Positions 1-37,880 of a stretch of 37,880 nt of DNA are shown one piece after another. Under the pieces are notes generated by a model. It was not told the DNA's origin, ran no database searches, and saw nothing but the letters and a program-made list of their open reading frames with translations. Every line of letters begins with the position of its first letter. Position 1 is the stretch's first letter. The DNA lies in the IMG/VR virus record IMGVR_UViG_3300031511_000003, positions 1 to 37,880 of that record, one strand, 5' to 3'. The translations under genes were made by a program, and so were the position numbers. The DNA comes from a virus.

Positions 1-3000
1 AGACATCCTTCGCAAGGAACCATGCAAGCTCGCCGGTTTGCTGCTGTGTGGGAGCACCCGGCGTTATGATGCGGTCGCCCTTCCAGTCACGGTTGCGCCA
101 GAGGCTAGCACCCAACTTGGGCACGGATGCGAGGTTGTTGTAAAGCACTCGCTCCAATCCCTTTGCGACCCCATGTCCTGTGCTCTGCGCGCTACCCTCT
201 TCGTAACCAGCCGATGCTCTTCCCCACACCTTGAACGGTTCCGAGAATGGGCCGAACATCTGGACAATGTGCTCCTTGCCCTCTTCGTCCTCCTTCTTGA
301 TGAAGCGGTACTTGTCTTCCCAAGAGTAGCCGAGCAGTGCCATGCCAGCAGCGCTTCCCACCACGCCGAGCATTGCGCGGATCATGGGGACCGGGTCTTC
401 CCACGTGGCGGCGTCCTTGACCATCTTCGGGAACAGCCTGCCCCACATGGCTACCTTGTAGGATGGAGTCAGCATGACTCTACGCGCCCACTTGGCAGGT
501 TCGGCTCGCATGAGGTTGTAGTCGCCGTGGTACTCGCGCGACCTGACTATGGCCTTGGACATAGCTTCTGCACGGTTGAACGGGATTCCTCTGCGCTTGG
601 CTCGCTTCTCCATGATTTCCAGCTGCGCCTTGGTGGAAGCAACACGCGCAACACGGTCGAGCCACCACGTAGCCTGTCGCAGCATCTTGTACGATGCGCT
701 CTCAGGCCAGAGCGGGAGCATCTTCCAGAGGTCCTTGGCGCTGTCTATCCCGTACTTGTTGAAGAACTTGGCCAGCGGAGTCTTGTCCTTCAGGCCAGCC
801 TCAATACTGGCTCGCATGTAGTCGTGGAACGAATCACGGTTCAGATCGGGCGGGGTGCTGAAGTTGTCGCCCTGCACCATTGCCATGTAGTCGTCGTCAC
901 GAGACAGGATGGACTTGATGGCCTCACCCCACTTCATGATGAACTTGTGACCGGACAGAACGGTGCCCTGCCACATGTTGTTGGTGGTCATAATGAGCGG
1001 ATTGAAGAACTTGAGCTGCTTCTGCATGACGTTGAAAGCATCGTACAGCTTGCCAGCGCTGGTGCTTACAGAAGCTCGTTCTGTGAAATCCCTGATGGCC
1101 TCGGCCATGATGGGGTTGACCTTCCACTTCTGGCCCTTGTATCCATAGGTGGCGCGTTCCTCTGTGCGCACCTTGCCATCCGGGCCAATGACCTTGAAGG
1201 TGGAGGTTCCGGTCCTGAACCTCTTGCGGTTGTAAGGCTCAATGCCGGGTAGCTCGACCCACCCATCGGGCGCTTCGTTGGCGGGTAGAGCATACTCGGG
1301 GTCCGTCTTCACGATCATCTCGTGGAAATCGTTGACGAGAAGCTTGTTCATCATGTAGCTATAGGCATCTGCCATAGCCACACGGAAGTCCATCTCGACA
1401 TCGAAGCCATCCTTGATGAGGTCCGGTATCGTTTCGTATTGCCTGCCGAGCGCGCGCTCTGGAGTGGTCTTCAGCCTTTCCTTCAACGTACCTCGGTGGA
1501 TGTCCTGCTCAATGGACACGGAGGTCTCGGGGTTGATCTGCTTTCCAAGAAGAATGTGGCGAGAGTAGCGAAGGCGCATGAGCCTATCCCTAACTCTCTG
1601 TAGGTCAGCGATTTCCTGCAACGCATCGGCCTTCTTGGTGCTGCCCTCGACGTAGTCCCCCAGCTTCTCTTTGAGTCCTTCTATCCTAGCATCGGTAGCC
1701 TTTATGGCACTATTCGGCCAAGTACCCATTCCGAGTTCTTCCACCCATATCTTGTCCATCATGGAGTAGAACTCGTTTACTTCCTCGCCCACTCCTTTCA
1801 GATATTCTGGCAGATTGTAGCCCTCGGGGTTTTCTCTCCACAGGGATACGAGTCCAGCATCCCGCTCGGAGATGTCGTTGCCGTTGTCATCGTACTGGAA
1901 CTTGTCGAGTACTGCCTTGCGGGCTACCTCGTTCGTAAACCCCTCGCTGACGTATGTCCTGCGAAGGTGCTCGAACAGAGTGAGCTTTGCTGCGCGCAGC
2001 CTGCGTCCCTTGAAGACCTTGTTTGCCACAGCACTTATGGCCGCACCAACTCGCTTGATCGCAGCTGTTACGTCAGAAGGGGCGATACCGCTTCTGAGCG
2101 TAGTGTCCCCCATGGCCCGCCTGATGTCGTCCTGATTGGTGCTCTTGCCTTCGACGAGGTCGCGGACTCTCTGCGCGTACTCAGGCCCGAACTTCGGGTC
2201 TTCTGCCATGGCACGATAGGTTTTCTCGGCTTCTACCGGGTCGTTCATATCAAGTAGCGACTGAGCAATTATCTGCTCACCGGACTCTTCGCTTATGGCC
2301 TCACCTTCGGCAGCGGCCTTGCGCATATTAGTTTCGGCATTCTTCTGGGTCTCTATCGGTACTTCAAGAGTGCCTTCTTCGCCGGTAGCGTATCCAATGT
2401 CCTGCTTCTGGTTCGCAGCTTCCATCGCAGCCATGCCAGCATCGAGTTCAGGATGCTCTTTGCGAAGACGATTAAACTCCTGCTCCTGAGCCAGACGAGC
2501 TTCAGCGGCTTGAGCCAGTTCCGCTCTCTGGTTCTGGATGATCTGCGGCACATCGCCATTGGCCATTGATTCGAGTTCGGTGATAGCATTGTCGATGCCC
2601 TTGCGCATTGCCTCTCTGAAAGCTCTGAGCTTCTTCGACCTGCTGCCGAGAGCCTTCAGTGCCTTGCGGACACCGTTGAGTCTGCGCACGGCACCGGCGT
2701 AATCACCATCTTCGATTGCATTGCGCACAATGCTTTGCGGAGAGGCTACTCCCTTGTTCTGCAAGTGCTTGCGAAGCGCATCTTTTGCTCCGTGAGCGGC
2801 TTCCAGCTTGGTGAACGCAGTGCTAAGCTCTTCTCCTACGGTCCTGACCTCGTTGTCGGATAGCCCGCTCTTGCTCGTAACTCCGAGCCTGACCTCTGGA
2901 CGCGGACGCTTGAGCACGGACATCTTCTCACGCGCCGCTTCCACCTCTGGCGCGGCACCCTCTGCGATAGGGGCTATCTCCCCACCAGCTACAGCGTCAG

Positions 3001-5767
3001 CAATGATGGCATCTACCATCTGGTCTTTAGTCAGATTGAGGTGCGGAATTCCCCTATCGTTAAGGTCTTCTGCCAGTTCGCCTTCGGCCTTGTCGTCAAG
3101 CTCAAGCTCAGACATCGCCTGTGCTCTGGTATGCTCAGTGGCAATGCGCGCAGGAGGCTTCTTCTCAAGGACCTCCTCGCCCATGCGAGGCTGAGCTTCC
3201 TCTCTCTCAAGCTCTGCCGGTTTTTCTTGAGCGGCTATTTCGGTTGCCGCAACTTCCTGCGTCTTTACCGCAGGGACCTGCGGTGCAGCTACGGGCCGCT
3301 CGACCGGGACCTGCGGTGCAGCTACGGGTTCCTTGATTGGAACCTGAGGTTCGCTGACAGATTTCGGCTTCGGCTGGACTACCGTACCTCCCGGTGCACC
3401 ACGCTGAATCGGAACTGCCGCGCCCTTCTGCTTCTTGCGATCTTTGATGTCTGCCAGTTCTCTTTCGAGGCTGGCTATCTGGGTGTTGATCTGGGCAGCA
3501 CGATTGAAGTCCTGCTCTCTATTCGCCCTGCGTTCTTCCTTCCTGAGTTGCTTGATCTGGTTGTTCAAGTCCTTCTGCCACTTGGACAAGCGCATCTGGC
3601 GCTTACGTTCGGCTGCGCGCACCTCCTTGGCAGACGGCTTGGCTTCCTGTACCTTAGGCGCAGGCTCGGGAATGCCCTTGATGGCACGGAGCCTCTTCCT
3701 AAGCGACTCCTTCACATTGGTTAGGTTCTTCTTGTCCCTTGGGTCCTGCTCCAGCTCAACAGCACGACGACCCAAGTCCTCGTACAGGACCTCGGCCTCG
3801 GCCTGAGTGACGGTGCCCTTCTTCAGGCCGTTGTCGACCTCAAGGGCTATCTGCTTTATCCCCCTGCCCGACTTGGCTTTGCGAGCACGTGCCCTCTTCT
3901 TGAGCGCGGTCTCGCTGACTGCCTGCTGCGTGGGGGGTGGGACAGGTTCTGTCCTAGGTGCTTTCTTCTTGGCTGGAGCCTCTCGCTGAGCTGCGCGCTC
4001 GGCTGCGAGGCGTCTGACCTCCTCTACAGTGGGGCCAGCTTCCTCAGCTGGGGGCGCAGGAGGGGCCTTCTCTTCCTTCTTGGCTTCCGGCTTGGGTGCC
4101 TTCTTGGGCTTCTCTACGGGCTTCTGTGGCTCAGCAACGGCACGTTCTCTGGTCTCCTTGACGAAGGGTCCGACCGTCTTGCGCTCGACCTTCATCTCGC
4201 CGACACTGCCCTCAGCCTCAGCCTTCTTTACTACCTTCTCGGCTTGCTTGGCCTTCGCCTCTTCTGCCTTGGCCTCCATGATGGTCGAGATGGCATCTTT
4301 GACTCTGAGGGCCTCAGCCTCGTTCATCACCCTCTCTGCCAGACTCTTAGCCTTCTCGTCTACCGGGACTTTGTTGTCTATCATCCCGATGAGGGTGTTG
4401 GCATACTGCTGCATCTTCTTATTGGTGCTCTTCTCAGACACCATCACAGCAGCGTTGTATAGCTGTTGCTGACGATTGGCTACGACACCGCCCTTGAAGG
4501 CACCCGGTATGTGACCGGCGGCGGTGAGCATGAGCAGGCTGACACCGGCCCGCTTCATTTCCTCAAGCCCTTGATCGAGAACGGCATAGAAGTCTATGTC
4601 TGGGTTCTCTTTGTTAGCCGCTGCCGCCCCGGCCTTACCGGCTTCCTCGATGACGAACTGCAAGCCTTCCTCGCCGACTTCGTGCAGCCAGTTCTTGCCG
4701 AACTTCTTTGCGTAGCTGGTCATGTAAGCGACCACGCCACGACGGAAAGCCTCCTGTGCGCCGGGGGTCAAGCCTTCTATCTGCGACATTTCTACGGCAG
4801 CAGATGGGATAGCAGCGGCAATAGCCCAAGCTGTAGCCTTCTCCTTGGGCACTCCCATGTCGATCATTTCGGTGCGCAGGTCCGGTGCTATCTGCGAAGT
4901 CCAGAAAGCGATGCCGCCGCCGGGGCCGGTGGTTCCGGTAGCTACTGCGCTGGCCCCAAGCCTCGGAATCATGCGAGCTACGTCGGCTAGCCCCTTCGTT
5001 ACAAGGTTGTGGCCAAGTACGTCCTTGCCCTCGCGTATGCGACGGACGCGACTTCTGATTTCTGCCGCATCCGAGACTGCGTCCTGAATCTCCTGCGGGA
5101 TGTCCGCAGGTCTGCCGCGCTCAAGGCTCTTCTGGAATGACCACTCGCCTTCCTTCCAAGGCTTCGTAGCCCTTGGGTGATCTTCCGCAAAGACGCTTGG
5201 GAAGCCGGGGACGATAGCCATCTGCTTCTCGAACGAATCCCAGATGTCGACAAACCCACGGCTTACGCTCTCGAACGTGAAGCCAAGAGCGTTGCGCTGC
5301 TTCTCTGTCGACTGCTCGTTCAGGAAGGAGTAGAAAATCTGCCGGTCCTTCGGGTTGAGATTCTGGATGTACCCGGTATCTATGTCATCGAGAGTTTCAC
5401 CACGAGCGTACTCGCCAGCCCGCTTGTACATCTCCTTGTACGGCTTCCAGTACTTGACCGTGGCATCGTAGATGGACTTGCCAGCCTTCTTGCCGAACCT
5501 GAGGTCCAGCAAGTCCTTCGTGTCCTGCTCGGGCACATCCTGAAAGTACCACTGGCGAGCAGTGGCAGCATAGTCCATGACATCCTGATAGTTCTTGCCA
5601 GCCTCGTCGAACGAGTCGAGGATGTTGCTCAGGTCTTGGTCGTCTACCTTCCGATTTCCGTCAGTGGCGGTCAGAAGAGAATCAAGTTCTTCGTCCTGCC
5701 CCTGACCGGGAGACAGTCTGGCAGTCCCCGGCGGTAATTCGGCACCGTACTGTATGAACCCTGCCAT
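1..5767 (-). CDS. giant polyvalent internal virion protein, C-terminus cut by the window edge
   Basis: An open frame of 1,922 codons starts at ATG 5767, two bases after the stop of the upstream gene, and is still open at base 1. Residues about 1-430 are mostly helical, with alanine-rich hydrophobic stretches near residues 310-320 and 405-420. Residues about 440-870 are a low-complexity Lys/Glu/Pro/Ala linker containing an 11-residue tandem repeat. Residues about 900-1900 are again well-ordered and helical, and a Trp/Arg-rich segment near 1,660-1,730 recalls the LPD38-type domains of phage polyvalent proteins (recalled from the family, not searched). Last in the structural operon, this size and make-up fit an internal protein ejected with the DNA into the host. 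No enzyme domain was recognised. The virion-ejection role is inferred from family and position. Confidence 0.85.
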   Translation of the reverse strand, partial: MAGFIQYGAELPPGTARLSPGQGQDEELDSLLTATDGNRKVDDQDLSNILDSFDEAGKNYQDVMDYAATARQWYFQDVPEQDTKDLLDLRFGKKAGKSIYDATVKYWKPYKEMYKRAGEYARGETLDDIDTGYIQNLNPKDRQIFYSFLNEQSTEKQRNALGFTFESVSRGFVDIWDSFEKQMAIVPGFPSVFAEDHPRATKPWKEGEWSFQKSLERGRPADIPQEIQDAVSDAAEIRSRVRRIREGKDVLGHNLVTKGLADVARMIPRLGASAVATGTTGPGGGIAFWTSQIAPDLRTEMIDMGVPKEKATAWAIAAAIPSAAVEMSQIEGLTPGAQEAFRRGVVAYMTSYAKKFGKNWLHEVGEEGLQFVIEEAGKAGAAAANKENPDIDFYAVLDQGLEEMKRAGVSLLMLTAAGHIPGAFKGGVVANRQQQLYNAAVMVSEKSTNKKMQQYANTLIGMIDNKVPVDEKAKSLAERVMNEAEALRVKDAISTIMEAKAEEAKAKQAEKVVKKAEAEGSVGEMKVERKTVGPFVKETRERAVAEPQKPVEKPKKAPKPEAKKEEKAPPAPPAEEAGPTVEEVRRLAAERAAQREAPAKKKAPRTEPVPPPTQQAVSETALKKRARARKAKSGRGIKQIALEVDNGLKKGTVTQAEAEVLYEDLGRRAVELEQDPRDKKNLTNVKESLRKRLRAIKGIPEPAPKVQEAKPSAKEVRAAERKRQMRLSKWQKDLNNQIKQLRKEERRANREQDFNRAAQINTQIASLERELADIKDRKKQKGAAVPIQRGAPGGTVVQPKPKSVSEPQVPIKEPVAAPQVPVERPVAAPQVPAVKTQEVAATEIAAQEKPAELEREEAQPRMGEEVLEKKPPARIATEHTRAQAMSELELDDKAEGELAEDLNDRGIPHLNLTKDQMVDAIIADAVAGGEIAPIAEGAAPEVEAAREKMSVLKRPRPEVRLGVTSKSGLSDNEVRTVGEELSTAFTKLEAAHGAKDALRKHLQNKGVASPQSIVRNAIEDGDYAGAVRRLNGVRKALKALGSRSKKLRAFREAMRKGIDNAITELESMANGDVPQIIQNQRAELAQAAEARLAQEQEFNRLRKEHPELDAGMAAMEAANQKQDIGYATGEEGTLEVPIETQKNAETNMRKAAAEGEAISEESGEQIIAQSLLDMNDPVEAEKTYRAMAEDPKFGPEYAQRVRDLVEGKSTNQDDIRRAMGDTTLRSGIAPSDVTAAIKRVGAAISAVANKVFKGRRLRAAKLTLFEHLRRTYVSEGFTNEVARKAVLDKFQYDDNGNDISERDAGLVSLWRENPEGYNLPEYLKGVGEEVNEFYSMMDKIWVEELGMGTWPNSAIKATDARIEGLKEKLGDYVEGSTKKADALQEIADLQRVRDRLMRLRYSRHILLGKQINPETSVSIEQDIHRGTLKERLKTTPERALGRQYETIPDLIKDGFDVEMDFRVAMADAYSYMMNKLLVNDFHEMIVKTDPEYALPANEAPDGWVELPGIEPYNRKRFRTGTSTFKVIGPDGKVRTEERATYGYKGQKWKVNPIMAEAIRDFTERASVSTSAGKLYDAFNVMQKQLKFFNPLIMTTNNMWQGTVLSGHKFIMKWGEAIKSILSRDDDYMAMVQGDNFSTPPDLNRDSFHDYMRASIEAGLKDKTPLAKFFNKYGIDSAKDLWKMLPLWPESASYKMLRQATWWLDRVARVASTKAQLEIMEKRAKRRGIPFNRAEAMSKAIVRSREYHGDYNLMRAEPAKWARRVMLTPSYKVAMWGRLFPKMVKDAATWEDPVPMIRAMLGVVGSAAGMALLGYSWEDKYRFIKKEDEEGKEHIVQMFGPFSEPFKVWGRASAGYEEGSAQSTGHGVAKGLERVLYNNLASVPKLGASLWRNRDWKGDRIITPGAPTQQQTGELAWFLAKDV
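3273..3328. repeat. 23-bp direct repeat inside the giant protein gene
   Basis: Two identical 23-bp copies lie at 3273-3295 and 3306-3328 with a 33-bp period, so the reading frame is kept. They encode two copies of PVAAPQVP in the proline/alanine linker of the giant internal protein. The repeat most likely arose by in-frame slippage in a flexible linker. Confidence 0.85.
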
Positions 5768-10697: not shown

Positions 10698-12745
10698 CAG
10701 TTAGTCTCCATCTCTACATCCATGGACACGTCGTAGATGCTCCACGGATTGTTCGGTCGGTCATCGTACAGTTCCCACGCTAGGTGCGTCTTGCGTATTC
10801 CGCCAAGCGGAACACGCTTACGGCCACGTGGGGTAATAGTGCTCTCGTCATCACCGTTCATGTTCACGAGACCGTAATCCGTGGGGTCTGTCGCCCTGTA
10901 GTTCTTATCCTCAAGATTCTCTGCTGTATCGCTGAAATCGCCGTACATGTTGAACTGAAGATTGCTGTCGTTCTTCTCGAAGACAAGGTTGGCGTACATC
11001 ATTCTCTTGATGCGGTCTATGGTTCCGTAGTCGTGCCAACCAGTCTTGTATCGAGCCTCGATGTTTCCGACGTAGTACTCGCTGGTCTCGTCCAGTGCTA
11101 CGGCAAAGCAGTCCTCCAAGTACAGGGTGTTCTCGGTGTTGGCAGCTACGATGCCCCATTGACCAGCACCGGTACCGTTGTGAATGTAGACTGGAACACC
11201 AGCCAGCCCAAGACCTGTCGTGGGGAACTGCGCATCATTGTCCGTAAGGGAGCAGTATGGCGACCCCGTACCCCAGTAGGCATCAACAGTACCAGAGTAA
11301 GTAGAGTTGACCGGTGCCCCATCGAGGTCGCCATATGGGTATTCCCACAGGTACCCGTGCCTGTCTCCAAGCACAAGTACCTCTTCGCCCTCGGTGTTTA
11401 CCACTCGGGACAACGCCGTAAACTCGGTGCGGAAGCGGAAGATGGAGAACTTCTTTTCGAGGTAGTGCCAGACGATTGCGTAATCGCATCCAAGTTCGGC
11501 ATCTTGCCCCGGTATGAACGCGAGATACTGGCCCTTGCGCTTCAGCAAACCGCCCATGCACATCTGCTGCTCGCCTGTAACGTCCAGCTGAAGGTTGTCA
11601 TACACCCAGCTGCCAAGCGCCACTGATGCAAGAGCCAGACCACCATCAGGCACGATGGCGACAATTCCGTCCTTCGACATCCAGTAGGCTACGCCGCCAT
11701 CTCCGAGCACCATGCTGCGGTGGCTGACGCAACCATATTCGGTCGAGACAGTACTGACGGAACTGTACTCGTATGAGGGGTTTGTGTTGTAGTAAAGAGT
11801 GTAGGTCTTCTTGCTCTTTGGCAGCAGCAGCCTGCGGCCTTGCGGCATGATTCCCGCAGGCTTATCATCTTCCTTCTTGTTGATGGGGAGATTGTTAAAT
11901 GCTGGCCACTTGTGCTCGAAGAACGGGTCGGTCCAGATCAGGGTGTCTGCATCTCCGCAGATGCGGTATTCCGTGGTTCGCGTTGCTCCCGCGTAGTTGT
12001 CTCGAAGCACGATGTTCCCGGTGGCGGGGTCGTAAGCGTCGATCATGTAGGCTCTGCCGTCACCTTCGGCATGAAATTCCTTGCCGATTAGATGGAAGCC
12101 GAAGACGGCTCCCTCGACCGGAGCAACCTCATCATCGCCAGTAGTTACGTCTACTCGCCCTTCTGAGTAGGGGATGTCTCCCCATCCAAAGACTCTGCTT
12201 CCATGTGTGCAGATGAACGGTTTTGGAGTCGGGACCTGTATGGCCGTATCCAGTCCTTCATTGGCGAAGTCCAAGTCGTCATCGGCGGTGTTGTCGTTGA
12301 AAACCCCGGCGGGAAGAGCGACCTCGCCAACTCGCGCAAGAACCGGCCAAGCGCCGTCAGCAATCGTTCTGTAAATGCGGACATGTGTAACCTCCGCATT
12401 ATCAGCAGCAAGAGCAGCAAGGTTGATGTTGCAGCTCTGGTTGGCCAGATCAATCTCATAGGCAGCGACCTCTTCGCCGTCTATGGGATTGGCCTGTCCT
12501 TCCTCGTCCTCGTTCACGTTGTACGGAACCAGACGATAGACGTAGTGGCCGTTGAGGTTTCCTGCCCCGCCCGCTGCCAATACCGGGTCCTGACGGAACG
12601 GACGCAGAACCAGAGGCAGCACAGCGCCGGTAACTGGGTTGTACTTCTGCATGGCCTCAAGACCGTTGCTGAGGATGCTCTTCCCATTCAACTCTGTGTG
12701 GTTGATTATTAACTGAGGAAAATCGAATTGCCCTATTACAGCCAA
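10697..12745 (-). CDS. beta-propeller tail protein, nozzle or stabilisation type
   Basis: This 682-aa protein has a TTG start eight bases after GGGGAGGG. It is almost entirely beta-strand, with repeated strand-turn units and many Tyr/Trp/Gly/Asp turns. It includes a central stretch on tail-propeller lines, with PQGRRLLLPKSKKTYTLYY near residue 305 and GGVAYWMSKDGIVAIVPDGG near 350. Large propeller proteins of this kind form the tail hub, nozzle or plug of short-tailed phages. Its place after the adaptor and before the fibres agrees. The C-terminal 60 residues contain a TPRGRKRVPLGG segment and a final acidic strand. The specific name (gp10/nozzle-like) is inference. Confidence 0.7.
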   Translation of the reverse strand: MAVIGQFDFPQLIINHTELNGKSILSNGLEAMQKYNPVTGAVLPLVLRPFRQDPVLAAGGAGNLNGHYVYRLVPYNVNEDEEGQANPIDGEEVAAYEIDLANQSCNINLAALAADNAEVTHVRIYRTIADGAWPVLARVGEVALPAGVFNDNTADDDLDFANEGLDTAIQVPTPKPFICTHGSRVFGWGDIPYSEGRVDVTTGDDEVAPVEGAVFGFHLIGKEFHAEGDGRAYMIDAYDPATGNIVLRDNYAGATRTTEYRICGDADTLIWTDPFFEHKWPAFNNLPINKKEDDKPAGIMPQGRRLLLPKSKKTYTLYYNTNPSYEYSSVSTVSTEYGCVSHRSMVLGDGGVAYWMSKDGIVAIVPDGGLALASVALGSWVYDNLQLDVTGEQQMCMGGLLKRKGQYLAFIPGQDAELGCDYAIVWHYLEKKFSIFRFRTEFTALSRVVNTEGEEVLVLGDRHGYLWEYPYGDLDGAPVNSTYSGTVDAYWGTGSPYCSLTDNDAQFPTTGLGLAGVPVYIHNGTGAGQWGIVAANTENTLYLEDCFAVALDETSEYYVGNIEARYKTGWHDYGTIDRIKRMMYANLVFEKNDSNLQFNMYGDFSDTAENLEDKNYRATDPTDYGLVNMNGDDESTITPRGRKRVPLGGIRKTHLAWELYDDRPNNPWSIYDVSMDVEMETN

Positions 12746-28388: not shown

Positions 28389-28407
28389 CAGCACCGACGG
28401 TTCGGAA

Positions 28408-28439
28408 GGGTGGGAGCTTCGGCTCTCACCCTTTTTTTT
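28408..28439 (+). terminator. Rho-independent terminator
   Basis: A 10-bp stem (28408-28417 with 28422-28431, one G-T mismatch pair) with a TTCG tetraloop is followed by eight T residues (28432-28439). It closes the transcription unit of the first right-arm gene. Confidence 0.92.
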
Positions 28440-30542: not shown

Positions 30543-30755
30543 ATGGCGGTTACTGTGAAGTTCGGCGCGAACACCCTGAACATCGAAGCGGCAGGTCGCA
30601 CGGTCAGCGAAATCCGTGAGGACTACGAGGGGCCGCTCGGCATGTCCGGGGACGAGCAGGCACGGCTCAACAACGGCGGTGCCGTTCAGGACGACCACGT
30701 TCTGCACGACACCGACGTGCTGGAGTTCGTGAAGCCCGCTGGCGAGAAGGGCTAG
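30543..30755 (+). CDS. ubiquitin-like (beta-grasp) protein of a conjugation cassette
   Basis: ATG 30543 lies five bases after AGGAGG; 70 aa. The order VTVKFG strand, TLNIEAAG strand, VSEIREDYEG helix, RLNNGG turn and VLHDTDVLEFVKP strand is that of ThiS/MoaD/PRTRC-C-type beta-grasp proteins. The protein ends in AGEKG, so a single C-terminal glycine is already exposed and no processing would be needed for activation. PRTRC C proteins also end in Lys-Gly, as I recall. It lies directly before E2-like, JAB and E1-like genes, which is the main support for a conjugation role. A strong terminator right after it should raise its level over the enzymes. Confidence 0.75.
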   Translation: MAVTVKFGANTLNIEAAGRTVSEIREDYEGPLGMSGDEQARLNNGGAVQDDHVLHDTDVLEFVKPAGEKG

Positions 30756-30777
30756 CTGCTCAGCAGGTCGCCGTGGT

Positions 30778-30816
30778 GGGGTGCTCGGGCTTTGACGCTC
30801 GGGCACCCCATCTTTT
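30778..30816 (+). terminator. strong terminator between ubiquitin-like and E2-like genes
   Basis: A 13-bp stem (30778-30790 with 30797-30809, two G-T pairs) with a six-base loop is followed by ATCTTTT. It lies 23 bp after the ubiquitin-like stop and about 18 bp before the E2-like start. The likely effect is partial termination, giving more ubiquitin-like mRNA than enzyme mRNA. Confidence 0.85.
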
Positions 30817-30833
30817 CGTGAAAGGAGGCGTGG

Positions 30834-31736
30834 ATGTCTCTTTCGGAAGGAACGCACATCGAGATAGAAGGCAACGAGGTGTGCATCGTTCGTACTCAGG
30901 TAATGCGCAGGGTCAAGACGGACGATTTCGTTGCCAAGATGGCCTCGATGAATCCCGTTTCAACGGGTTTGCAGCCAAAGCACACCATCTTCTACCAGCA
31001 GTGGACTCAGAACAACGTGCCGCACGGCCTGTACGTGGTGGAGTGGGAACCTCGCCGCGTGTCCCTGAACTACAAGTCGGGCATGTTCGAGTCCATCGGC
31101 GCGAACGTCTACGAGGTCTGGTTCCCGTGGGTGCAGTGGTACCTGCACATCATCAGCGGCAAGGTGATGCGTGTCTACATCACATGCACGGAAAACCGCA
31201 TCAAGCAGATGGAGGACAAGCTCTTCCGTCTTCCGATTCCCAATCACAGCCACACCGGGTTCTGTCAGGGCGACGTGGCCGCTCGTGCCAAGCTGCCGCT
31301 GAACGTCCAGTGCGAGCAAATCATAACAGACATCATCACAAGCATCTGGAACGATGACCTTCAGCCTCCATGGGTGGACTTCAATCTCATGGACCGAAAG
31401 GCGTATTCGACATGCGAGACCAAGTACTACACGGTGCGTGACGAATGGAACACCTTATTCGCCGACATCACGCAACGCCGTAAAGCCGCTAACTTAAAGG
31501 GCAATGTCGATGAGTTCAAGAAGATCACCGAGGAAATGAAGGCCAGGCAAGCCGAGTGGAAAGAGCTTGAACTTCCGCTGGCGCAAGCGTGGCTTGCCAC
31601 TTCGGGCATTCCGTACTGGGCGAACAAGGTCAAGGAGGAAGGCTCCGAGTTCTGGCGCAAGCTGCTGCGTATTCGCCATGACTACGGGACATTCGGCGAG
31701 TACCTCAAGCAGTTCACAGACGGGAGGATGCGATGA
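30834..31736 (+). CDS. E2-like conjugating protein
   Basis: ATG 30834 follows AAAGGAGG; 300 aa. The middle region has an E2-like order: strand GLYVVEWEPRR (residues 65-75), VYEVWFPWVQWYLHI (92-106), MRVYITC (112-118), then PIPNHSHTGFCQGD (134-147). The last block resembles the HPN...GxxC active-site segment of E2 enzymes, so Cys144 is the candidate catalytic cysteine. A helix (CEQIITDIITSIWN) follows, as in E2s. The C-terminal 120 residues are charged and helical, with a KKITEEMKARQAEWK coiled coil, and are probably an extra domain. The same role in PRTRC systems is played by protein B. Family assignment is by eye and needs a profile search. Confidence 0.65.
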   Translation: MSLSEGTHIEIEGNEVCIVRTQVMRRVKTDDFVAKMASMNPVSTGLQPKHTIFYQQWTQNNVPHGLYVVEWEPRRVSLNYKSGMFESIGANVYEVWFPWVQWYLHIISGKVMRVYITCTENRIKQMEDKLFRLPIPNHSHTGFCQGDVAARAKLPLNVQCEQIITDIITSIWNDDLQPPWVDFNLMDRKAYSTCETKYYTVRDEWNTLFADITQRRKAANLKGNVDEFKKITEEMKARQAEWKELELPLAQAWLATSGIPYWANKVKEEGSEFWRKLLRIRHDYGTFGEYLKQFTDGRMR

Positions 31737-32005
31737 GTGCTTCCGTGGAAATCGCAAACCTGTGCCCGGAGGTGACAGCTTCTCCCCTCAGAAACTACTT
31801 CGGCAACTCCCTGCTCAAGATGGATGCCGAGGGTCTTGAGGGAATGGTTGGCAACGTGGCCACCCTGCTCATGGCCCAGACAGTGTGCTACATCAAGAGT
31901 CAGGGCGAAGTGGTCGAGGTGCTGCGTTCCGATACCAAGACGTTCGGTCGCATGTGCGCGATCATCGAGACATGCAAGACACAAGGAGGGAAGGTGCGCA
32001 GATGA
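31733..32005 (+). CDS. unknown protein embedded in the ubiquitin-like cassette
   Basis: This 90-aa protein is coupled to the E2-like gene by ATGA and to the JAB gene by ATGA. It is helical with four cysteines and a KMDAEGLEGMVGNVATLLMA helix in its centre, and a Lys/Arg tail. It may be a partner, adaptor or substrate of the cassette enzymes. PRTRC cassettes also have small unknown proteins in equivalent places. It has no recognisable domain. Confidence 0.75.
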   Translation: MSASVEIANLCPEVTASPLRNYFGNSLLKMDAEGLEGMVGNVATLLMAQTVCYIKSQGEVVEVLRSDTKTFGRMCAIIETCKTQGGKVRR

Positions 32006-33378
32006 CGCTACCAATCGTGATTCTTCCCAAGGAAGAGAGTGTGCTTGCGTTCGAGAAGCGCACCGGGATTCAGGACACCATCTACTACGTGGTGACCGCT
32101 GACGGTGTGTTCATACGCAAGCGCAACCCGCTGTACGACTGTCTGCACGAGGCAGAACTCCCCAAGTGCCTCGGCAGCGCCAAGGAATCGCTGATTCTCA
32201 AGGCCAAACCGGTGCCCCGGCGTGTGCTCAACGAGATAATCGCCTTCCTTGCCGAGGTCTGCGTGAAGTACGACGCCGAGGGTGTGGCCATGCTCTACTA
32301 CCACCCCGAGAAGAAGGAGTGGGCATACATCATTCCCGAGCAGGAGACAACCGAGAAGGGACTGCACGTGGAATACAAGATGCCCGACACTCCCGAAGGC
32401 TTTGTGCTGTTCGGCTCCGTGCATTCTCATGCAGGTTCTTCTGCATTCCAGAGCGGCACGGACCACAACGACGAGTGCAATTTCGAGGGAGTCCACATCA
32501 CCGTGGGCAAGCTGCCAGACAACCCCGAGCTGCATGTCCGATTCCATGCTTGCGGTTCCAAGTGGGACTTCAAGAACCGGGACAAGCTCGTCGAGTCCAT
32601 CACTCCCAAGGTCAAGGTGCCCGAGGGTGCGATGGAAAAGGTATCGCTCAAGAAATCCTACGTTGCGTCGTCCATACCGGTCGCCAAAGGTGAGTACTCC
32701 AATGGACACCAGCAGACCATGTTCAACAACATGAATGGCTGGTCGGGTGACGGCAGCGTGTACTGCACCGAGCAGAAGGACCGTGTGCATCCACTCAAGT
32801 CCAGAATGGACCACTACCCTGTTGGTCAGGTGCTCAGGTACAAGGGAGAGTACTACATCAAGACCAACACAGGCTGGAAGGAGATGGACAGCAGCGAAAA
32901 AAAATCCCTTCCCCCCGCGTCCCAGACTACGGAGGTGGACGAAACAGCTACCTCGAAGAGTTCGGATGGGACGAGCACGGGGGGTACTGAATGGTACGAG
33001 GAAATCCCCGAGGAAGAGCTGATCGAGATCATGGACGTTCGGGACAGCTACTTCGGGGAGGGCACGTTCAGGGAGGGCAAGCTGTTCGGCGGGCAGGAGT
33101 ACCACCGCACGGTGTGGGGATGGGAGACAGACCTCGAAGAGGAAGTCGGCCACTACATTCTCCCGCTCAGCAAGCGCAAAGAGCTTGTCAATCTGCTCGA
33201 CATCGAAGAGCGCAGTGAGATGGTGCAGGGCTACAATCAGGACATGCTCAGACAGCTGCTATCTTCCGGCTGGACTCCGCAGGATTGCCTCATGGCACTC
33301 GTCGTAGAGAACAAGGAGTGCCAAGAATTCGAGGACGAGATAGATGCCGAAACGAAGGAGGCGGAGCATGTGGGATAG
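32002..33378 (+). CDS. JAB/MPN-domain isopeptidase, PRTRC-A-like, with C-terminal extension
   Basis: ATG 32002 overlaps the previous stop as ATGA; the upstream open part (31885-32001) belongs to another frame and is not coding. The 458-aa protein has an N-terminal region (1-125) with a large strand-helix pattern and a JAMM zinc site at VHSHAGSSAFQSGTD. H141, H143, S151 and D154 fit HxHx7SxxD exactly. Glu85 is one candidate for the general base. Such enzymes cleave ubiquitin-like conjugates or precursors. Residues 225-285 form a separate beta-rich part with a WSGDGSVYC stretch, a Ser/Thr linker follows (about 300-330), and the last 125 residues are acidic and helical. A homopolymer A8 (32897-32904) with C6 (32911-32916) lies in the linker. 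Confidence 0.88.
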   Translation: MTLPIVILPKEESVLAFEKRTGIQDTIYYVVTADGVFIRKRNPLYDCLHEAELPKCLGSAKESLILKAKPVPRRVLNEIIAFLAEVCVKYDAEGVAMLYYHPEKKEWAYIIPEQETTEKGLHVEYKMPDTPEGFVLFGSVHSHAGSSAFQSGTDHNDECNFEGVHITVGKLPDNPELHVRFHACGSKWDFKNRDKLVESITPKVKVPEGAMEKVSLKKSYVASSIPVAKGEYSNGHQQTMFNNMNGWSGDGSVYCTEQKDRVHPLKSRMDHYPVGQVLRYKGEYYIKTNTGWKEMDSSEKKSLPPASQTTEVDETATSKSSDGTSTGGTEWYEEIPEEELIEIMDVRDSYFGEGTFREGKLFGGQEYHRTVWGWETDLEEEVGHYILPLSKRKELVNLLDIEERSEMVQGYNQDMLRQLLSSGWTPQDCLMALVVENKECQEFEDEIDAETKEAEHVG

Positions 33379-34039
33379 ATTCGTCATCGTCGGGTGCGGG
33401 GGGATAGGCGGCTGGCTTATCCCTCCGCTCTTCAAGGAGATAGAACAGTACAAGCAGGACTGCAACCCGAACGTCGAGGTCGTTCTCGTAGATGGCGACG
33501 TGATCGAGGACGGTAATCTTCCTCGCCAGAACTTTCATGCCGACATGGTTGGCATGAACAAGGCGGAGTCTTTCCTGCCCGATACCTCAGGGTATTCGGT
33601 CGAGAAGTTCTACGTCGGCAACGAGAACGTCGAAGAACTGGTGCGGGAGAATACGGTCGTTCTGGCCGGTCCTGACAACCATGCTTGCCGCCGGATTCTC
33701 GCAGAACGCTGCGATGAACTGGGGTTCAGCTGCCTGATAGTGGGCGGCAACGAACTGGTTGACGGCAACGTGTCCTGTCAGCTGCGTGAGCTGGGCCAGT
33801 ACCAGACGCAGAGATACAAGGACAGGCACCCCGAGGTCTGGAAGAGCGAGGACGATGACCGCAGCGAGATGAGCTGCGACCAGCTGTCTGCCTTGCCCGG
33901 TGGCGGACAGACCTTGGCTGCGAACTTCATGTGTGCGGCCATCATGCTGAACACCGTGCGCATTCTGCTGGGTATCCGTGTTCCGCTGTCCGATGTGTAC
34001 TTCGATGTGGCTAAAAGCCAGATGGGAGGGACAGCATGA
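33368..34039 (+). CDS. ThiF/E1-like adenylating enzyme
   Basis: ATG 33368, with GGAGG upstream, overlaps the JAB stop by 11 bases; 223 aa. The Rossmann loop is VIVGCGGIGG (residues 6-15), followed by VLVDGDVIEDGNLPRQNF (39-56), the standard D-x-D...NLxRQ block of ThiF/E1 enzymes, Lys65 and PDNHACRR (102-109). Cys170 in SEMSCDQLSALPGGGQT is a candidate thioester cysteine. There is no CxxC zinc pair as in ThiF/MoeB. It should activate the ubiquitin-like C-terminus with ATP. It is small compared with full E1s and is nearest to PRTRC-type ThiF proteins, as I recall. The next gene is coupled by ATGA. Confidence 0.9.
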   Translation: MWDRFVIVGCGGIGGWLIPPLFKEIEQYKQDCNPNVEVVLVDGDVIEDGNLPRQNFHADMVGMNKAESFLPDTSGYSVEKFYVGNENVEELVRENTVVLAGPDNHACRRILAERCDELGFSCLIVGGNELVDGNVSCQLRELGQYQTQRYKDRHPEVWKSEDDDRSEMSCDQLSALPGGGQTLAANFMCAAIMLNTVRILLGIRVPLSDVYFDVAKSQMGGTA

Positions 34040-34920
34040 TAATCGCCATGATGGCACGGCCAAGCAAGTGCGGCGCACGTTGCGATCACCTGCAGATTTC
34101 CAACTCCCGATACACGCACTACTTGGATAGATTTGTGCTAGACCGTCTTGGCAGCGCAGAAATGTCCGATCTGTGGTGGAATGTGCTGAATGAGCTTGCC
34201 ATGAGAGACCTCAACAACCACCGTAATCCGGGTTATATCACCCGATTCATCAACACCAATACCAGAGATAACGTGTATCGCTTTTGCACGTTTCTCAATG
34301 AGAACTATCGTGACTGGTATGCTGGTGTGGTCGACCCATCAGAGGACGACGCGATAGAACATGCGCAAGATCGCGTTTGCTATGGTTGCGAATATTGGGA
34401 TGATGAGGTGGGTGGTTGTATTGAAAATGACAGATGCGACGCTTATTACGAAGAGATAGACACATACATGAGAGAGAACCGTGACTACAACTACGACATG
34501 ATGCAGGATGCGTGGGAAGATTTCGACTGGGAGATGGAAGTCCCGCAGCAGACATCCTCTCGCATCAACCGACATACGATAGGTGTCTTCACTCCCATTC
34601 GCTACTTGGACCGTCGCTTCGACTTCTCAACACCGTGCATCATCGAACGCGAGCCTACGTTTGACGACCTTAGGACCGTATCGGCTGACGCCTCGATGCA
34701 CCCTACAATACACGCCATGAATCTGTGGTGCAGGATGAGACTGGCTATAGACCCTGCACTGGACCACATGATTGACAAGTCCTTGCCTCCGTCAAGCGTG
34801 TGGGGGCCACGTGCTGCGGCTACTGCCGTGCTTGCTCAGGATCGACACCAGCAGTACATGCTCGATAACGGAGTAGGATGGGAGGTGGGATATGGCCGTC
34901 CCAGTACCGCACAATTGTAG
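34036..34920 (+). CDS. Cys-rich unknown protein coupled to the E1-like gene
   Basis: This 294-aa protein overlaps the E1-like stop as ATGA, so it is probably co-translated with the conjugation cassette. It has an N-terminal CGARC pair (residues 12-16) and a CYGCEYWDDEVGGCIENDRC cluster near residues 114-133 that looks like a treble-clef or ribbon-type zinc site. It is rich in Asp, Tyr, Trp and Arg. The region has more A/T and different codon use than its neighbours, a sign of separate origin. A role as a ligase-type adaptor (E3-like) is a guess from position and the cysteine cluster only. Confidence 0.75.
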   Translation: MIIAMMARPSKCGARCDHLQISNSRYTHYLDRFVLDRLGSAEMSDLWWNVLNELAMRDLNNHRNPGYITRFINTNTRDNVYRFCTFLNENYRDWYAGVVDPSEDDAIEHAQDRVCYGCEYWDDEVGGCIENDRCDAYYEEIDTYMRENRDYNYDMMQDAWEDFDWEMEVPQQTSSRINRHTIGVFTPIRYLDRRFDFSTPCIIEREPTFDDLRTVSADASMHPTIHAMNLWCRMRLAIDPALDHMIDKSLPPSSVWGPRAAATAVLAQDRHQQYMLDNGVGWEVGYGRPSTAQL

Positions 34921-35527
34921 TTGGCTTTGCGCACATGCATATCTGGAGAGTGGAGAAAGCCCACGAAGAGGTCTTTCTGAGGACTGTCATGAGAGTTTGC
35001 GCTGTCGGATACGATGGCAAGGCGACCACACCTGTACCTGTCCCAATCCTCCGTTTGCTGCTCATTGCGCTCATCATTGTAATGGTACTAGATGTGGTGG
35101 CTTTGAACCTGCCATTAACTGTGCTTGGCTTAAAGGGGAAGAGTGCAAGAAGGTGCCCAAGTGTGAGCACGACTGGTATCTTGTCGGCGTTCACATGCCC
35201 AGCATGGTGATGTGGTGTTCCAGATGCGGTTCGATAATGACCACGAACAAGCGGGAAAGCGAGAGAGTAAGAAGCCTCAAGACGCTGTGGAACTTCAAGT
35301 GCAGACACAATCCCAAGATGCCGCGCGCTCTGCTTGAGCCGCTGGGTGGTGAGAAGATGTCCGAAGCAGAGGCAGAAGTGCGGAGATTGCTGTCCGCGAT
35401 AGCCAAGAAGCAGGGTATAATCAGTCTTTCCAAGGACGACTTGGAGGCTGTTGGGATAGCACCCGATGTCACTATCACCAAGACCAAGAAGCTCAAACTC
35501 ACTGTCATCAAAGCAAAGGAGGTCTAA
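34892..35527 (+). CDS. Cys-rich protein with zinc-ribbon-like middle
   Basis: ATG 34892, after GGGAGGTGGG, overlaps the previous gene by 29 bases; 211 aa. The first 80 residues have at least twelve Cys and several His in irregular spacing. Residues about 90-115 hold KCEHDWYLVGVHMPSMVMWC followed by SRCG, a four-residue metal-site pattern (C, H, C, C). The C-terminal part, from about residue 155, is a charged helical domain with a final Lys-rich strand. It may bind nucleic acid. The very Cys-rich N-terminus could be partly non-coding upstream sequence of a shorter gene. A later start near residue 90 is possible but has no good support. Confidence 0.6.
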   Translation: MAVPVPHNCSWLCAHAYLESGESPRRGLSEDCHESLRCRIRWQGDHTCTCPNPPFAAHCAHHCNGTRCGGFEPAINCAWLKGEECKKVPKCEHDWYLVGVHMPSMVMWCSRCGSIMTTNKRESERVRSLKTLWNFKCRHNPKMPRALLEPLGGEKMSEAEAEVRRLLSAIAKKQGIISLSKDDLEAVGIAPDVTITKTKKLKLTVIKAKEV

Positions 35528-36345
35528 TGACTAAGCCACAGTTGCACGTGTCGCAGATACGCAGGTTGTGCCTGTGTGGTGAGCAGTACAGGCGCATCCA
35601 TGTACTCGGGGAACGACGGCCACCGGGAGCAGCTGCCCACATAGGCACTGCCAACGACCGGGCGCACAAGGACGACTTGCAGCACAAGATAGACGCTGGA
35701 GTGCTGCGAGAACTGACCTACACGAATGACGTAGTACGTGACAGCCTCAATGCTCTCTTCGAGGAAGGCGTCCATCTGGTCGAGGGCGAAAGCGAGAAGT
35801 CCGTGAAGGGGAATGCCGTAGATCGTGCCATTCGCATCAACAAAGTGCGGCACGAGGAACTGGCACCCATCATAAAGCCGACTGCCTTGGGGACCAAGTG
35901 GGTCGCCGTTCTCGAAGGCTACCCGTATGACTTGGCCGGAGAGATGGATGTCGAGGACGAAGACATCCCGGTTCGTGACCTCAAGACCAGCGGAGGCTAC
36001 CCTGCCCACACGGCAGCCGACACCTCGATGCAGCTGGACATGTACGCTCTATACAAACATTGCTGCGGCGCTGAACAGCTGCCAATGAGGGTGGCGCTGG
36101 ACTACGTGACCGACGTGATGAACAAGAGCGGCCCCAAGACGACGGCGAAGGTACTTGATAGCGTCAGATCGGAAGGGCATGTCCAGTCGATGCTTGCGAG
36201 AATCGAGCGGGTAATTAGCTGCCTCGAAAAGGGAGTGTTCCTTCCCGCTGATCCCGACAGCTGGGTATGCTGCGAGAAGTGGTGCGGGTTCTTTACGGAT
36301 TGCCCCTATGCGAAGGGGCGTGTTCAGGTTGGATACGGAGGATAG
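35527..36345 (+). CDS. PD-(D/E)XK nuclease, RecB/Cas4-like, with cysteine cluster
   Basis: ATG 35527 overlaps the previous stop (TAATG) after GGAGG; 272 aa. Motifs in order: ANDRAH with H47, AGEMDVED (137-144) with D141, the DLK triad at 151-153, and a QLDMY helix (Q169, Y173). These match the RecB/AddB/Cas4 nuclease core. Cys15 or Cys17 near the N-terminus and Cys248/249, Cys253 and Cys259 near the C-terminus fit the iron-sulfur cluster seen in such nucleases. The probable role is a 5'-3' exonuclease for recombination or replication. The next gene is a putative annealing-type protein. Confidence 0.85.
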   Translation: MTKPQLHVSQIRRLCLCGEQYRRIHVLGERRPPGAAAHIGTANDRAHKDDLQHKIDAGVLRELTYTNDVVRDSLNALFEEGVHLVEGESEKSVKGNAVDRAIRINKVRHEELAPIIKPTALGTKWVAVLEGYPYDLAGEMDVEDEDIPVRDLKTSGGYPAHTAADTSMQLDMYALYKHCCGAEQLPMRVALDYVTDVMNKSGPKTTAKVLDSVRSEGHVQSMLARIERVISCLEKGVFLPADPDSWVCCEKWCGFFTDCPYAKGRVQVGYGG

Positions 36346-36346
36346 C

Positions 36347-37414
36347 ATGAGCGAGGACAAGCGGGAAGAGATCGTGCACGTCGAGGCTATGCCGATGGTG
36401 GATGCCGCCGAGGTGGATATGCAAGTGGCAACTGCCAAGAAGTACGAGCGTAGCATCAAGCGGTTCAGGGAGAAGGTGCTTGAGCTTGCCACCATCGACA
36501 AGGAAACAGCCGAGGAATGCTGGTACGCTCTGCCTCGTGGCGGCAAGGTCATCGAGGGACCGGGCATCAGGTTCGCAGAGATAGTAGCCGCAAGCTACGG
36601 TAACATGAGGGCTGCGTCACGGCACATCAGCACCGACGAGAAGAGCGTTACCTGCGAGGGGGTGTGCTGGGACTTGGAGAACAACGTCGCAGTCAAGAGT
36701 ACCGTGAACAGGCGCATAACCAAGCGCAATGGCGAGCGCTTCGACGAGGACATGATTAACGTGACCATCGCAGCGGCCAATGCTATCGCCCTGCGCAATG
36801 CCATCTTCAAGGTAGTGCCCAAAGCTATCTTCCAGAAGAGCTTGGAAGAGGTGAAGAAGATCGCCATGGGCACAGGACGCACCATCACGGAGACTCGCAA
36901 GGCGATAGTCGAGCACTTCCGCAGCATGAAGGTGCCTGTTTCAAAGGTGCTCGAACTTGTGGGGCGCAAGGGTGTAGAGGACATCACGCTGGAAGATGCC
37001 ACCACCCTGCGAGGCGTGGCCACCGCCATCAAGGAGGGAACGACCACGATAGCCGAGGTCTTCAGTGCCAAACGTGCTGCTCCCAAGACAGTTACCATCC
37101 CCAAGAGTGCCGTGAAGAGCGGGGATGCGGCGGAGCACACTGGCCCCGGCGAGGCCCACAAGACAAAAGAACCTGCGCCGAAACGTGCCAAGCGCGAGAA
37201 GAAACCGGAACCCGAGAAGCAGGAGGTTACAATCGAAGATGCGAGAAAGCGTTTCAAGGACATACTGCCGTCCATCGCTGACAAGCTGAGCGACGACGTG
37301 GTAGCCGAGGAATGCTGGATGGCCGGTATCACAGAGGGCATCGACAAGTTCGAAGATGCCGACGCTGTCGTCAAGCTCTGCGATAAGCTGGAATCTCTCG
37401 CAAGTGAGTCATAA
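36347..37414 (+). CDS. conserved phage protein, possible single-strand annealing function
   Basis: ATG 36347 has GGAGG six to seven bases upstream; 355 aa. The stretch YALPRGGKVIEGPGIRFAEI (near residues 60-80) and the following ASYGNMRAASR, then INVTIAAANAIALRNAIFK, belong to a family often found in phage early regions, as I recall. That family is sometimes next to recombination exonucleases and often annotated only as hypothetical. Residues about 245-300 are a Lys/Pro/Glu-rich linker, and the last 60 residues form a helical domain. With the nuclease gene upstream, a role in DNA recombination or annealing is plausible. This has not been shown by any motif that I can identify. Confidence 0.8.
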   Translation: MSEDKREEIVHVEAMPMVDAAEVDMQVATAKKYERSIKRFREKVLELATIDKETAEECWYALPRGGKVIEGPGIRFAEIVAASYGNMRAASRHISTDEKSVTCEGVCWDLENNVAVKSTVNRRITKRNGERFDEDMINVTIAAANAIALRNAIFKVVPKAIFQKSLEEVKKIAMGTGRTITETRKAIVEHFRSMKVPVSKVLELVGRKGVEDITLEDATTLRGVATAIKEGTTTIAEVFSAKRAAPKTVTIPKSAVKSGDAAEHTGPGEAHKTKEPAPKRAKREKKPEPEKQEVTIEDARKRFKDILPSIADKLSDDVVAEECWMAGITEGIDKFEDADAVVKLCDKLESLASES

Positions 37415-37677: not shown

Positions 37678-37880
37678 CACGATGACAATCACTCCGATCA
37701 TGATGCAGGATTGGTTCGATTGTCCAAAGAGGTTCTGGTTCAAGTACATACGGGAGGGGGACAAATCCCCTCCCATTCTTTCCCAGATGTGGGAGCGTTG
37801 CGTGTTGACCACTCTGCTTGAAGCGTGTCACCGCATAGCCAAGGGTGAAGAGCCATTCAAGCTCAAGCAGATGGTGGCGT
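37667..37880 (+). CDS. second PD-(D/E)XK-like nuclease, 3' end outside the window
   Basis: ATG 37667, with GGGAGGAAG upstream, is open to the window edge (71 codons). The N-terminal MMQDWFDCPKRFWFKYI segment, a CPxxF/W pattern followed by a GxDKSPP loop, is typical of the start of RecB/AddB/Cas4 family (PDDEXK_1) nucleases, where the cysteine often joins an iron-sulfur cluster. The catalytic part lies downstream. It would make a second such enzyme in this module. The family call is based on the short N-terminus only. Confidence 0.6.
   Translation, partial: MSASTMTITPIMMQDWFDCPKRFWFKYIREGDKSPPILSQMWERCVLTTLLEACHRIAKGEEPFKLKQMVA

Follow-up and report, generated by a model that had tools for sequence, protein, structure and literature searches.

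A five-gene ubiquitin-like cassette in a phage genome

The IMG/VR record IMGVR_UViG_3300031511_000003, a viral sequence of 37,880 bases classed as linear, was analysed over its whole length (the window) and carries a cassette of five plus-strand genes at positions 30543-34039. These genes code for a ubiquitin-like protein (Ubl), an E2-like protein, a 90-aa helical protein, a JAB protease and an E1-like enzyme. On the minus strand are genes for a terminase (phrog_38) and a portal, both T7-like, and for a major capsid protein of the SU10 type; because of these genes the virus is assigned to the tailed phages, and it is probably podovirus-like. A megablast search of the window against phages returned no match. 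The cassette has the following features:

30543..30755, plus strand: Ubl, a 70-aa ubiquitin-like beta-grasp protein with the C-terminus ...AGEKG, its Gly already exposed
30775..30812, plus strand: terminator-like hairpin between the Ubl and E2 genes, with a 16 bp stem and a TTTT tail (z of the gap -4.0)
30834..31736, plus strand: E2-like protein of the Prok-E2_D type, with an N137/C144 active site, Asp175 and a ~115-aa helical C-terminal extension
31733..32005, plus strand: 90-aa helical protein (P0003), between E2 and JAB, conserved in the window clade
32002..33378, plus strand: JAB/JAMM metalloprotease with an N-terminal alpha+beta domain and a long C-terminal extension, a predicted Ubl isopeptidase
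33368..34039, plus strand: E1-like ThiF-type adenylating enzyme, a single 223-aa domain with predicted catalytic Cys170

An earlier note, made from the DNA letters alone, had read four of these five consecutive genes as Ub-like, E2-like, JAB and E1-like, and every motif was found as it described. In single-sequence Pfam searches E1 alone passed the curated cut-off, whereas JAB and Ubl stayed below it and E2 gave no match. Profile hidden Markov models (HMMs), made from alignments of relatives without the window sequence, were run against 505 window open reading frames (ORFs) and their reversals. Each of them had the cassette protein as its sole credible match (E2 5e-19, Ubl 1.1e-8, E1 7e-27, JAB 1e-26), which argues that the matches are not due to chance, and the presence of the cassette was thus confirmed. 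Judging from the residues and structural models of the cassette, we consider that it probably gives the phage a reversible and self-contained cycle of ubiquitin-like conjugation (probability roughly 0.75).

The genes had also been described as coupled by ATGA overlaps. This holds for E2 and the small gene, for the small gene and JAB, and for E1 and the gene that follows, but not for Ubl and E2, which are separated by a 78-nt gap with an AGGAGG site before each of the two starts, nor for JAB and E1, which overlap by 11 nt. By its position, the cassette may belong to an early region of the phage.

Family assignments and catalytic residues

The predicted beta-grasp fold of the 70-aa protein, with its exposed C-terminal Gly, was borne out by an AlphaFold2 model (predicted local distance difference test score, pLDDT, 88.5) whose best matches are ubiquitin, Fubi and MoaD. 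In VIA the model matched Fubi, ubiquitin, MoaD and SUMO with Z about 9 (9.0-9.3 for Fubi, ubiquitin and MoaD) and also TtuB, and in Foldseek the matches reached E about 1e-3. Its single-sequence Pfam match was to ThiS only (0.016, below the cut-off); a relative, L175, matches ThiS at 1.9e-6. The C-terminal tail is kept in relatives, with GxKG tails in Vibrio phage D69 and Salmonella phage Arash. Ubls of T4-like phages have TGTKG ends and occur in tandem: D69 has three copies, L053 five and several others two. Such poly-Ubl precursors (L002, 2415-3206; L053, 1586-2692; also L033, L041, L062 and L063) contain two to five domains, each ending in a GTKG-like sequence. Relatives from Chloroflexi and Planctomycetota have one to three further residues behind the last Gly of the Ubl, and L009 has one. 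Tandem or tailed Ubls require cutting and therefore fit with a JAB protease. In the window, where Gly is already the last residue of the Ubl, JAB would have only deconjugation to perform.

The E1-like enzyme, for which a D-x-D...NLxRQ block had been noted, contains GxGGxG, D42-x-D44, N50-L-P-R53-Q54, K65, D103 and C170. It matches PF00899 (ThiF) at 4.9e-11, and profile searches of PDB structures with its alignment retrieved Uba4, UBA3, UBA2, ThiF and Cap2; the same searches with the E2, Ubl and JAB alignments found no relative. The protease has the HxHx7SxxD site as described (H141-S-H143-x7-S151-x-x-D154), with Glu93 upstream, and matches Pfam Prok-JAB at 0.0012, below the cut-off.

A ThiF/MoeB-like E1, together with ThiS as the sole Pfam match of the Ubl and MoaD and TtuB among its structural matches, would also suit a sulfur carrier, in which a ThiS/MoaD-like Ubl thiocarboxylate, a ThiF-type E1 and JAB trimming serve tRNA or cofactor chemistry. 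This explanation is improbable: an E2-family protein with an invariant Cys accompanies E1 in nearly all loci, and this near-constancy of E2 weakens it. No sulfurtransferase or sulfur acceptor was found in the window scans, no rhodanese, ThiG or MoaE partner occurred among the genes scanned, and the tandem Ubls of related phages also speak against it.

The E2-like protein has the motif P136-N137-xxxx-G-x-C144; the general form PN-x(6-8)-C presumably corresponds to the HPN...C site of eukaryotic E2s. An E2 HMM made without any window-clade member still detected the window protein (7e-12), and 28 of the 43 E2 alignment members match Pfam Prok-E2_D directly, which supports its predicted membership in the Prok-E2_D family; the E2 of the closest relative found, G037 (IMGVR_UViG_3300033487_000021), matches PF14460 at 3e-4, below the cut-off. 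The AlphaFold2 core (residues 10-165) is confident, with pLDDT about 90. UBC/RWD proteins (Ube2w, an E2 in an RBR complex and a Plasmodium E2) formed the main coherent family among the matches of residues 43-175, with Z of 3.6-4.6. Matches of residues 182-255 were to generic coiled coils only and were discarded. Thus, of the earlier description, the PNxxxxGxC motif and, by profile, the E2 family stand, whereas the UBC fold is matched only weakly, if coherently, so the E2 call rests mainly on sequence.

Two residues after the conserved Asn173, 47 of 75 aligned E2s, including the window and most phages, have Asp and 10 have His, which is the residue in the Oscillatoria and Cytobacillus plasmids. 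In operon type 6d a His downstream of the E2 Cys was described as absolutely conserved (Iyer 2006, PMC1779556), so the phage type differs at a likely catalytic position. Some large phages (L010, L013-L029) encode two E2-like proteins (~2300-4300 and 11000-12600), one with a long C-terminal fusion in a JAB-E1-Ubl operon and the other ~5 kb downstream, which suggests E2 diversification for different targets.

The fifth gene, previously called unknown, now appears as a small helical protein conserved in the window clade, whose homologues in G037, L009 and L170 occupy the corresponding position (that of L170 was detected at 4e-7 with a three-sequence HMM). It gave no single-sequence family match and no match to the known 6d alpha-helical protein. 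It may be an adaptor or specificity factor.

Across alignments with about 20% identity the catalytic residues are near-invariant: Asn137 and Cys144 of E2 in 75/75 relatives, His141, His143, Ser151, Asp154 and Glu93 of JAB in 58/58, and the adenylation residues and Cys170 of E1 in 59-60 of 60, although these counts are partly biased because members were gathered by similarity. This bias is one of several points that weigh against a conjugation cycle. The window E2 as a single sequence has no direct match to PF14460 or any other Pfam family, and its model found nothing below E 0.19 in Foldseek, a non-significant result that stands beside the low Z scores for UBC proteins. The Ubl of L012 (3652-3867) ends in GTKA, with Ala in place of Gly; conjugation in the cyclic oligonucleotide-based anti-phage signalling system (CBASS) takes a C-terminal Gly or Ala (PMC10097602). 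Finally, the E1 is without the separate Cys domain and the UFD of dedicated E1s, which leaves E2 recruitment unexplained.

Relatives, gene order and the hairpin after the Ubl gene

In tblastn searches, relatives of JAB and E1 appeared in D69, Arash, a gut phage contig and Bacillus phage KLEB27-3, and related genes also on plasmids of Polaromonas, Cytobacillus and Oscillatoria. Alignments from these relatives extended the set to 52 viral loci for E1 and to 23 for E2; as single-protein queries against viral contigs, P0004, P0005 and TerL gave no match. The order E2-JAB-E1 occurs in about 70 viral loci, nearly all of those examined, and 26 of 36 sampled cassette contigs have a terminase match. 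The expectation that related phages keep the gene order held, since G037, L009 and L012 share the full order Ubl-E2-small-JAB-E1, as does a planctomycete chromosome (L170). The same order, with an ORF where the small gene would be, is found in Chloroflexi metagenome-assembled genomes (L171-L183). Single bins among L170-L183 hold several cassette copies (MGR_bin130, SKS1.bin7), and the bacterial cassette neighbourhoods showed no recurrent partner gene. In an E1 tree the window, G037, L009, L012, L011 and a group of 200-kb phages fall in a set of 12 viral rows (SH-like approximate likelihood ratio test 96) apart from plasmid and T4-like sequences; this tree was made by a quick method, has long branches and predates retrieval of the bacterial loci, which the set is not shown to exclude.

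The presence of relatives on plasmids raises the question of a decaying PRTRC plasmid remnant without function in the phage. We regard this as scarcely credible: the frames are open with overlapping starts, the catalytic residues are near-invariant, the E1 stands apart from plasmid E1s, and the cassette is retained in G037 at 28-48% identity.

Between the window and G037 the capsid is 77% and the portal 55% identical, compared with 48% for Ubl, 41% for E1, 35% for JAB and 28% for E2. These sequences show that the cassette diverges fast relative to structural genes with its catalytic residues held. E2 has changed most, which would suit a protein that faces the targets. Rapid divergence would also fit a counter-defence device that tags nothing itself and reverses Bil or CBASS conjugation by the host, through JAB especially or with Ubl, E1 and E2 as decoys, and the Cap3 JAB isopeptidase does reverse cGAS conjugation in CBASS (PMC10097602). 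Yet a stripped JAB would suffice for this, whereas all conjugating residues are conserved and the full cassette also occurs in bacterial genomes, which makes such a role unlikely.

In T4-like phages the cassette is part of the structural region and adjoins the terminase gene, which is divergent and neighbours the Ubl gene. The Ubl gene is directly beside a divergently transcribed terminase large subunit gene in L036, L062, L063, L066, L061, L080 and L082. The idea that the cassette always accompanies replication genes was dropped, as its neighbours are terminase and structural genes in T4-like phages and a clamp loader or unknown genes elsewhere. The location beside terminase, rather than in an accessory locus, speaks against the possibility that a phage-borne cassette tags proteins of rival phages in superinfection exclusion or defence, much as Bil tags phage tails according to work cited in PMC12135933. 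Window-clade cassettes in Chloroflexi and Planctomycetota genomes would fit with such a function, but PADLOC called no system for the set, giving weak E1-E2 matches of E1 only, and we find it rather doubtful. Mass spectrometry of Arash particles included Gp246 (E1), Gp247 (JAB) and Gp248 (E2); it is weak evidence for presence in the virion because ribonucleotide reductase and primase were found as well.

Two contigs with capsids 53-55% identical to that of the window (L087, L088) showed no cassette, but they are fragments of only 13-16 kb, and a search for the SU10 capsid in relatives gave no signal, nor did its controls. Next to the cassette, and not counted as part of it, the gene of a 294-aa hypothetical protein (34036..34920, plus strand) is ATGA-coupled to E1; the protein had no BLAST match in G037. 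The plus-strand genes at 35527-36345 and 36308-37414 are kept in G037 (49% and 61% identity), and the product of the latter matches phrog_3657 (2.6e-51), a family without assigned function, and may be a recombination protein.

Unrelated hairpins occupy the place of the window hairpin in G037, L009, L012 and others, and a hairpin lies 3' of the Ubl gene even in loci where this gene is the last. Ubl 3' ends had z < -2 in 30 of 40 loci (75%); the corresponding share among 239 other ORF ends was 15% (Mann-Whitney p 2e-14, overstated since the loci are related and the control ORFs include false ones). High-GC bacterial loci have the hairpin without a T tail, so termination is unproven there. The simplest reading suggests an attenuator through which Ubl would be transcribed in excess over the enzymes. 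Two more strong plus-strand terminator-like hairpins are present in the window (28404-28435 and 37752-37774).

Known systems and the proposed cycle

Iyer, Burroughs and Aravind (PMC1779556) predicted operon type 6d in bacteria in 2006, and their list of it has no phages. The 6d/PRTRC plasmid genes (Polaromonas JS666, L005) share with the window a small Ubl with C-terminal Gly, a Prok-E2_D-type E2, a JAB with an N-terminal alpha+beta domain, an adjoining single-domain E1 and the order E2-JAB-E1. In contrast to them, the window set is phage-borne, has the extra 90-aa gene and Asp for His in E2, and its E1 falls in a separate clade. Both JAB and E1 are below the curated NCBIfam cut-offs for PRTRC: JAB matches TIGR03735 (PRTRC_A) over residues 3-190 at 4.2e-14, with 52.6 bits against 101.8, and E1 matches PRTRC_ThiF with 33.8 bits against 144.75. 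No match to a ParB-related protein or PRTRC_F was found in the 37.9-kb record, which may be incomplete. On the Oscillatoria plasmid (L008, 7583-11162) a CBASS-like set with a DncV-like nucleotidyltransferase and SAVED lies beside a PRTRC-like E2-JAB-ThiF.

Bil (BilABCD) likewise combines the four components Ubl, E2, JAB and E1 in an operon. There BilA contains two Ubl domains, BilB carries a CEHH motif and BilD joins two adenylation domains to a Cys domain (PMC11354881). The Ubl of the window is one domain of 70 aa, its E2 lacks both His and Glu at the CEHH positions, and its E1 is a single domain of 223 aa. CBASS Cap2/Cap3 is alike in its E1-E2 conjugation with reversal by JAB, but Cap2 is an E2-E1 fusion and cGAS is conjugated, whereas the window has separate enzymes and a dedicated Ubl, and no nucleotidyltransferase occurred among the scanned cassette neighbours. 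Of the resemblances drawn earlier, that to PRTRC is therefore real, if distant, and Bil and Cap2/Cap3 share parts but not architecture: the window set is a divergent relative of 6d/PRTRC operons, and not PRTRC proper, Bil or Cap2/3.

Among large phages, D69, Arash and KLEB27-3 share the E2-JAB-E1 order and the Asp in E2, and gut contig MT835919 has this Asp and adjacent JAB and E1 genes with E2 apart. Unlike the window, D69 and Arash carry a long F-like gene that separates Ubl from E2, and their E1s are longer; D69 also has tandem Ubls. The cassette genes of these four are mostly annotated as hypothetical or structural proteins. No description of a phage-encoded cycle was found in the searchable literature, which included a comparative survey of 224 jumbo phages (2021) and a jumbo-phage review (2026), with subscription journals mostly beyond reach.

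In the proposed cycle, E1 would adenylate the C-terminal Gly70 of Ubl and then hold Ubl as a thioester on Cys170. Ubl would move to Cys144 of E2, where its transfer to lysines of the target would be aided by Asn137, which corresponds to the HPN Asn, and probably by Asp175. There is no sign of a separate E3, and the variable C-terminal extension of E2 and its 90-aa partner may select targets. JAB would cut the isopeptide bond and, in relatives with tailed or tandem Ubls, also mature the precursor, while the hairpin would keep the Ubl transcript in excess of the enzyme transcripts. The parts, their order, the near-invariant catalytic residues, the kindred cassettes of other phages and the fast divergence of the set can be read directly from sequence; this chemistry, the role of the hairpin and the choice of targets are what we infer from the cassette. 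The likeliest purpose would be modification of the phage's own replication or virion proteins, followed by host or defence proteins and then by exclusion of rival phages.

There is a reasonable likelihood that tailed phages run their own Ubl cycle, acting on phage or host proteins with a hairpin-set Ubl supply, in at least two lineages: the Ubl-E2-small-JAB-E1 clade and the T4-like clade with poly-Ubl precursors beside terminase. With related kits in dozens of other phages, bacterial viruses probably run their own ubiquitin-like signalling. Known bacterial ubiquitin-like conjugation is anti-phage defence, and a complete phage-encoded cycle, if true, would reverse this picture. Such cassettes occur widely in IMG/VR and also in phages that are in culture (Arash, D69), which would make a direct test feasible, and their minimal, separate E1, E2, JAB and Ubl, together with natural poly-Ubl precursors, offer material for the study of ubiquitin origins.

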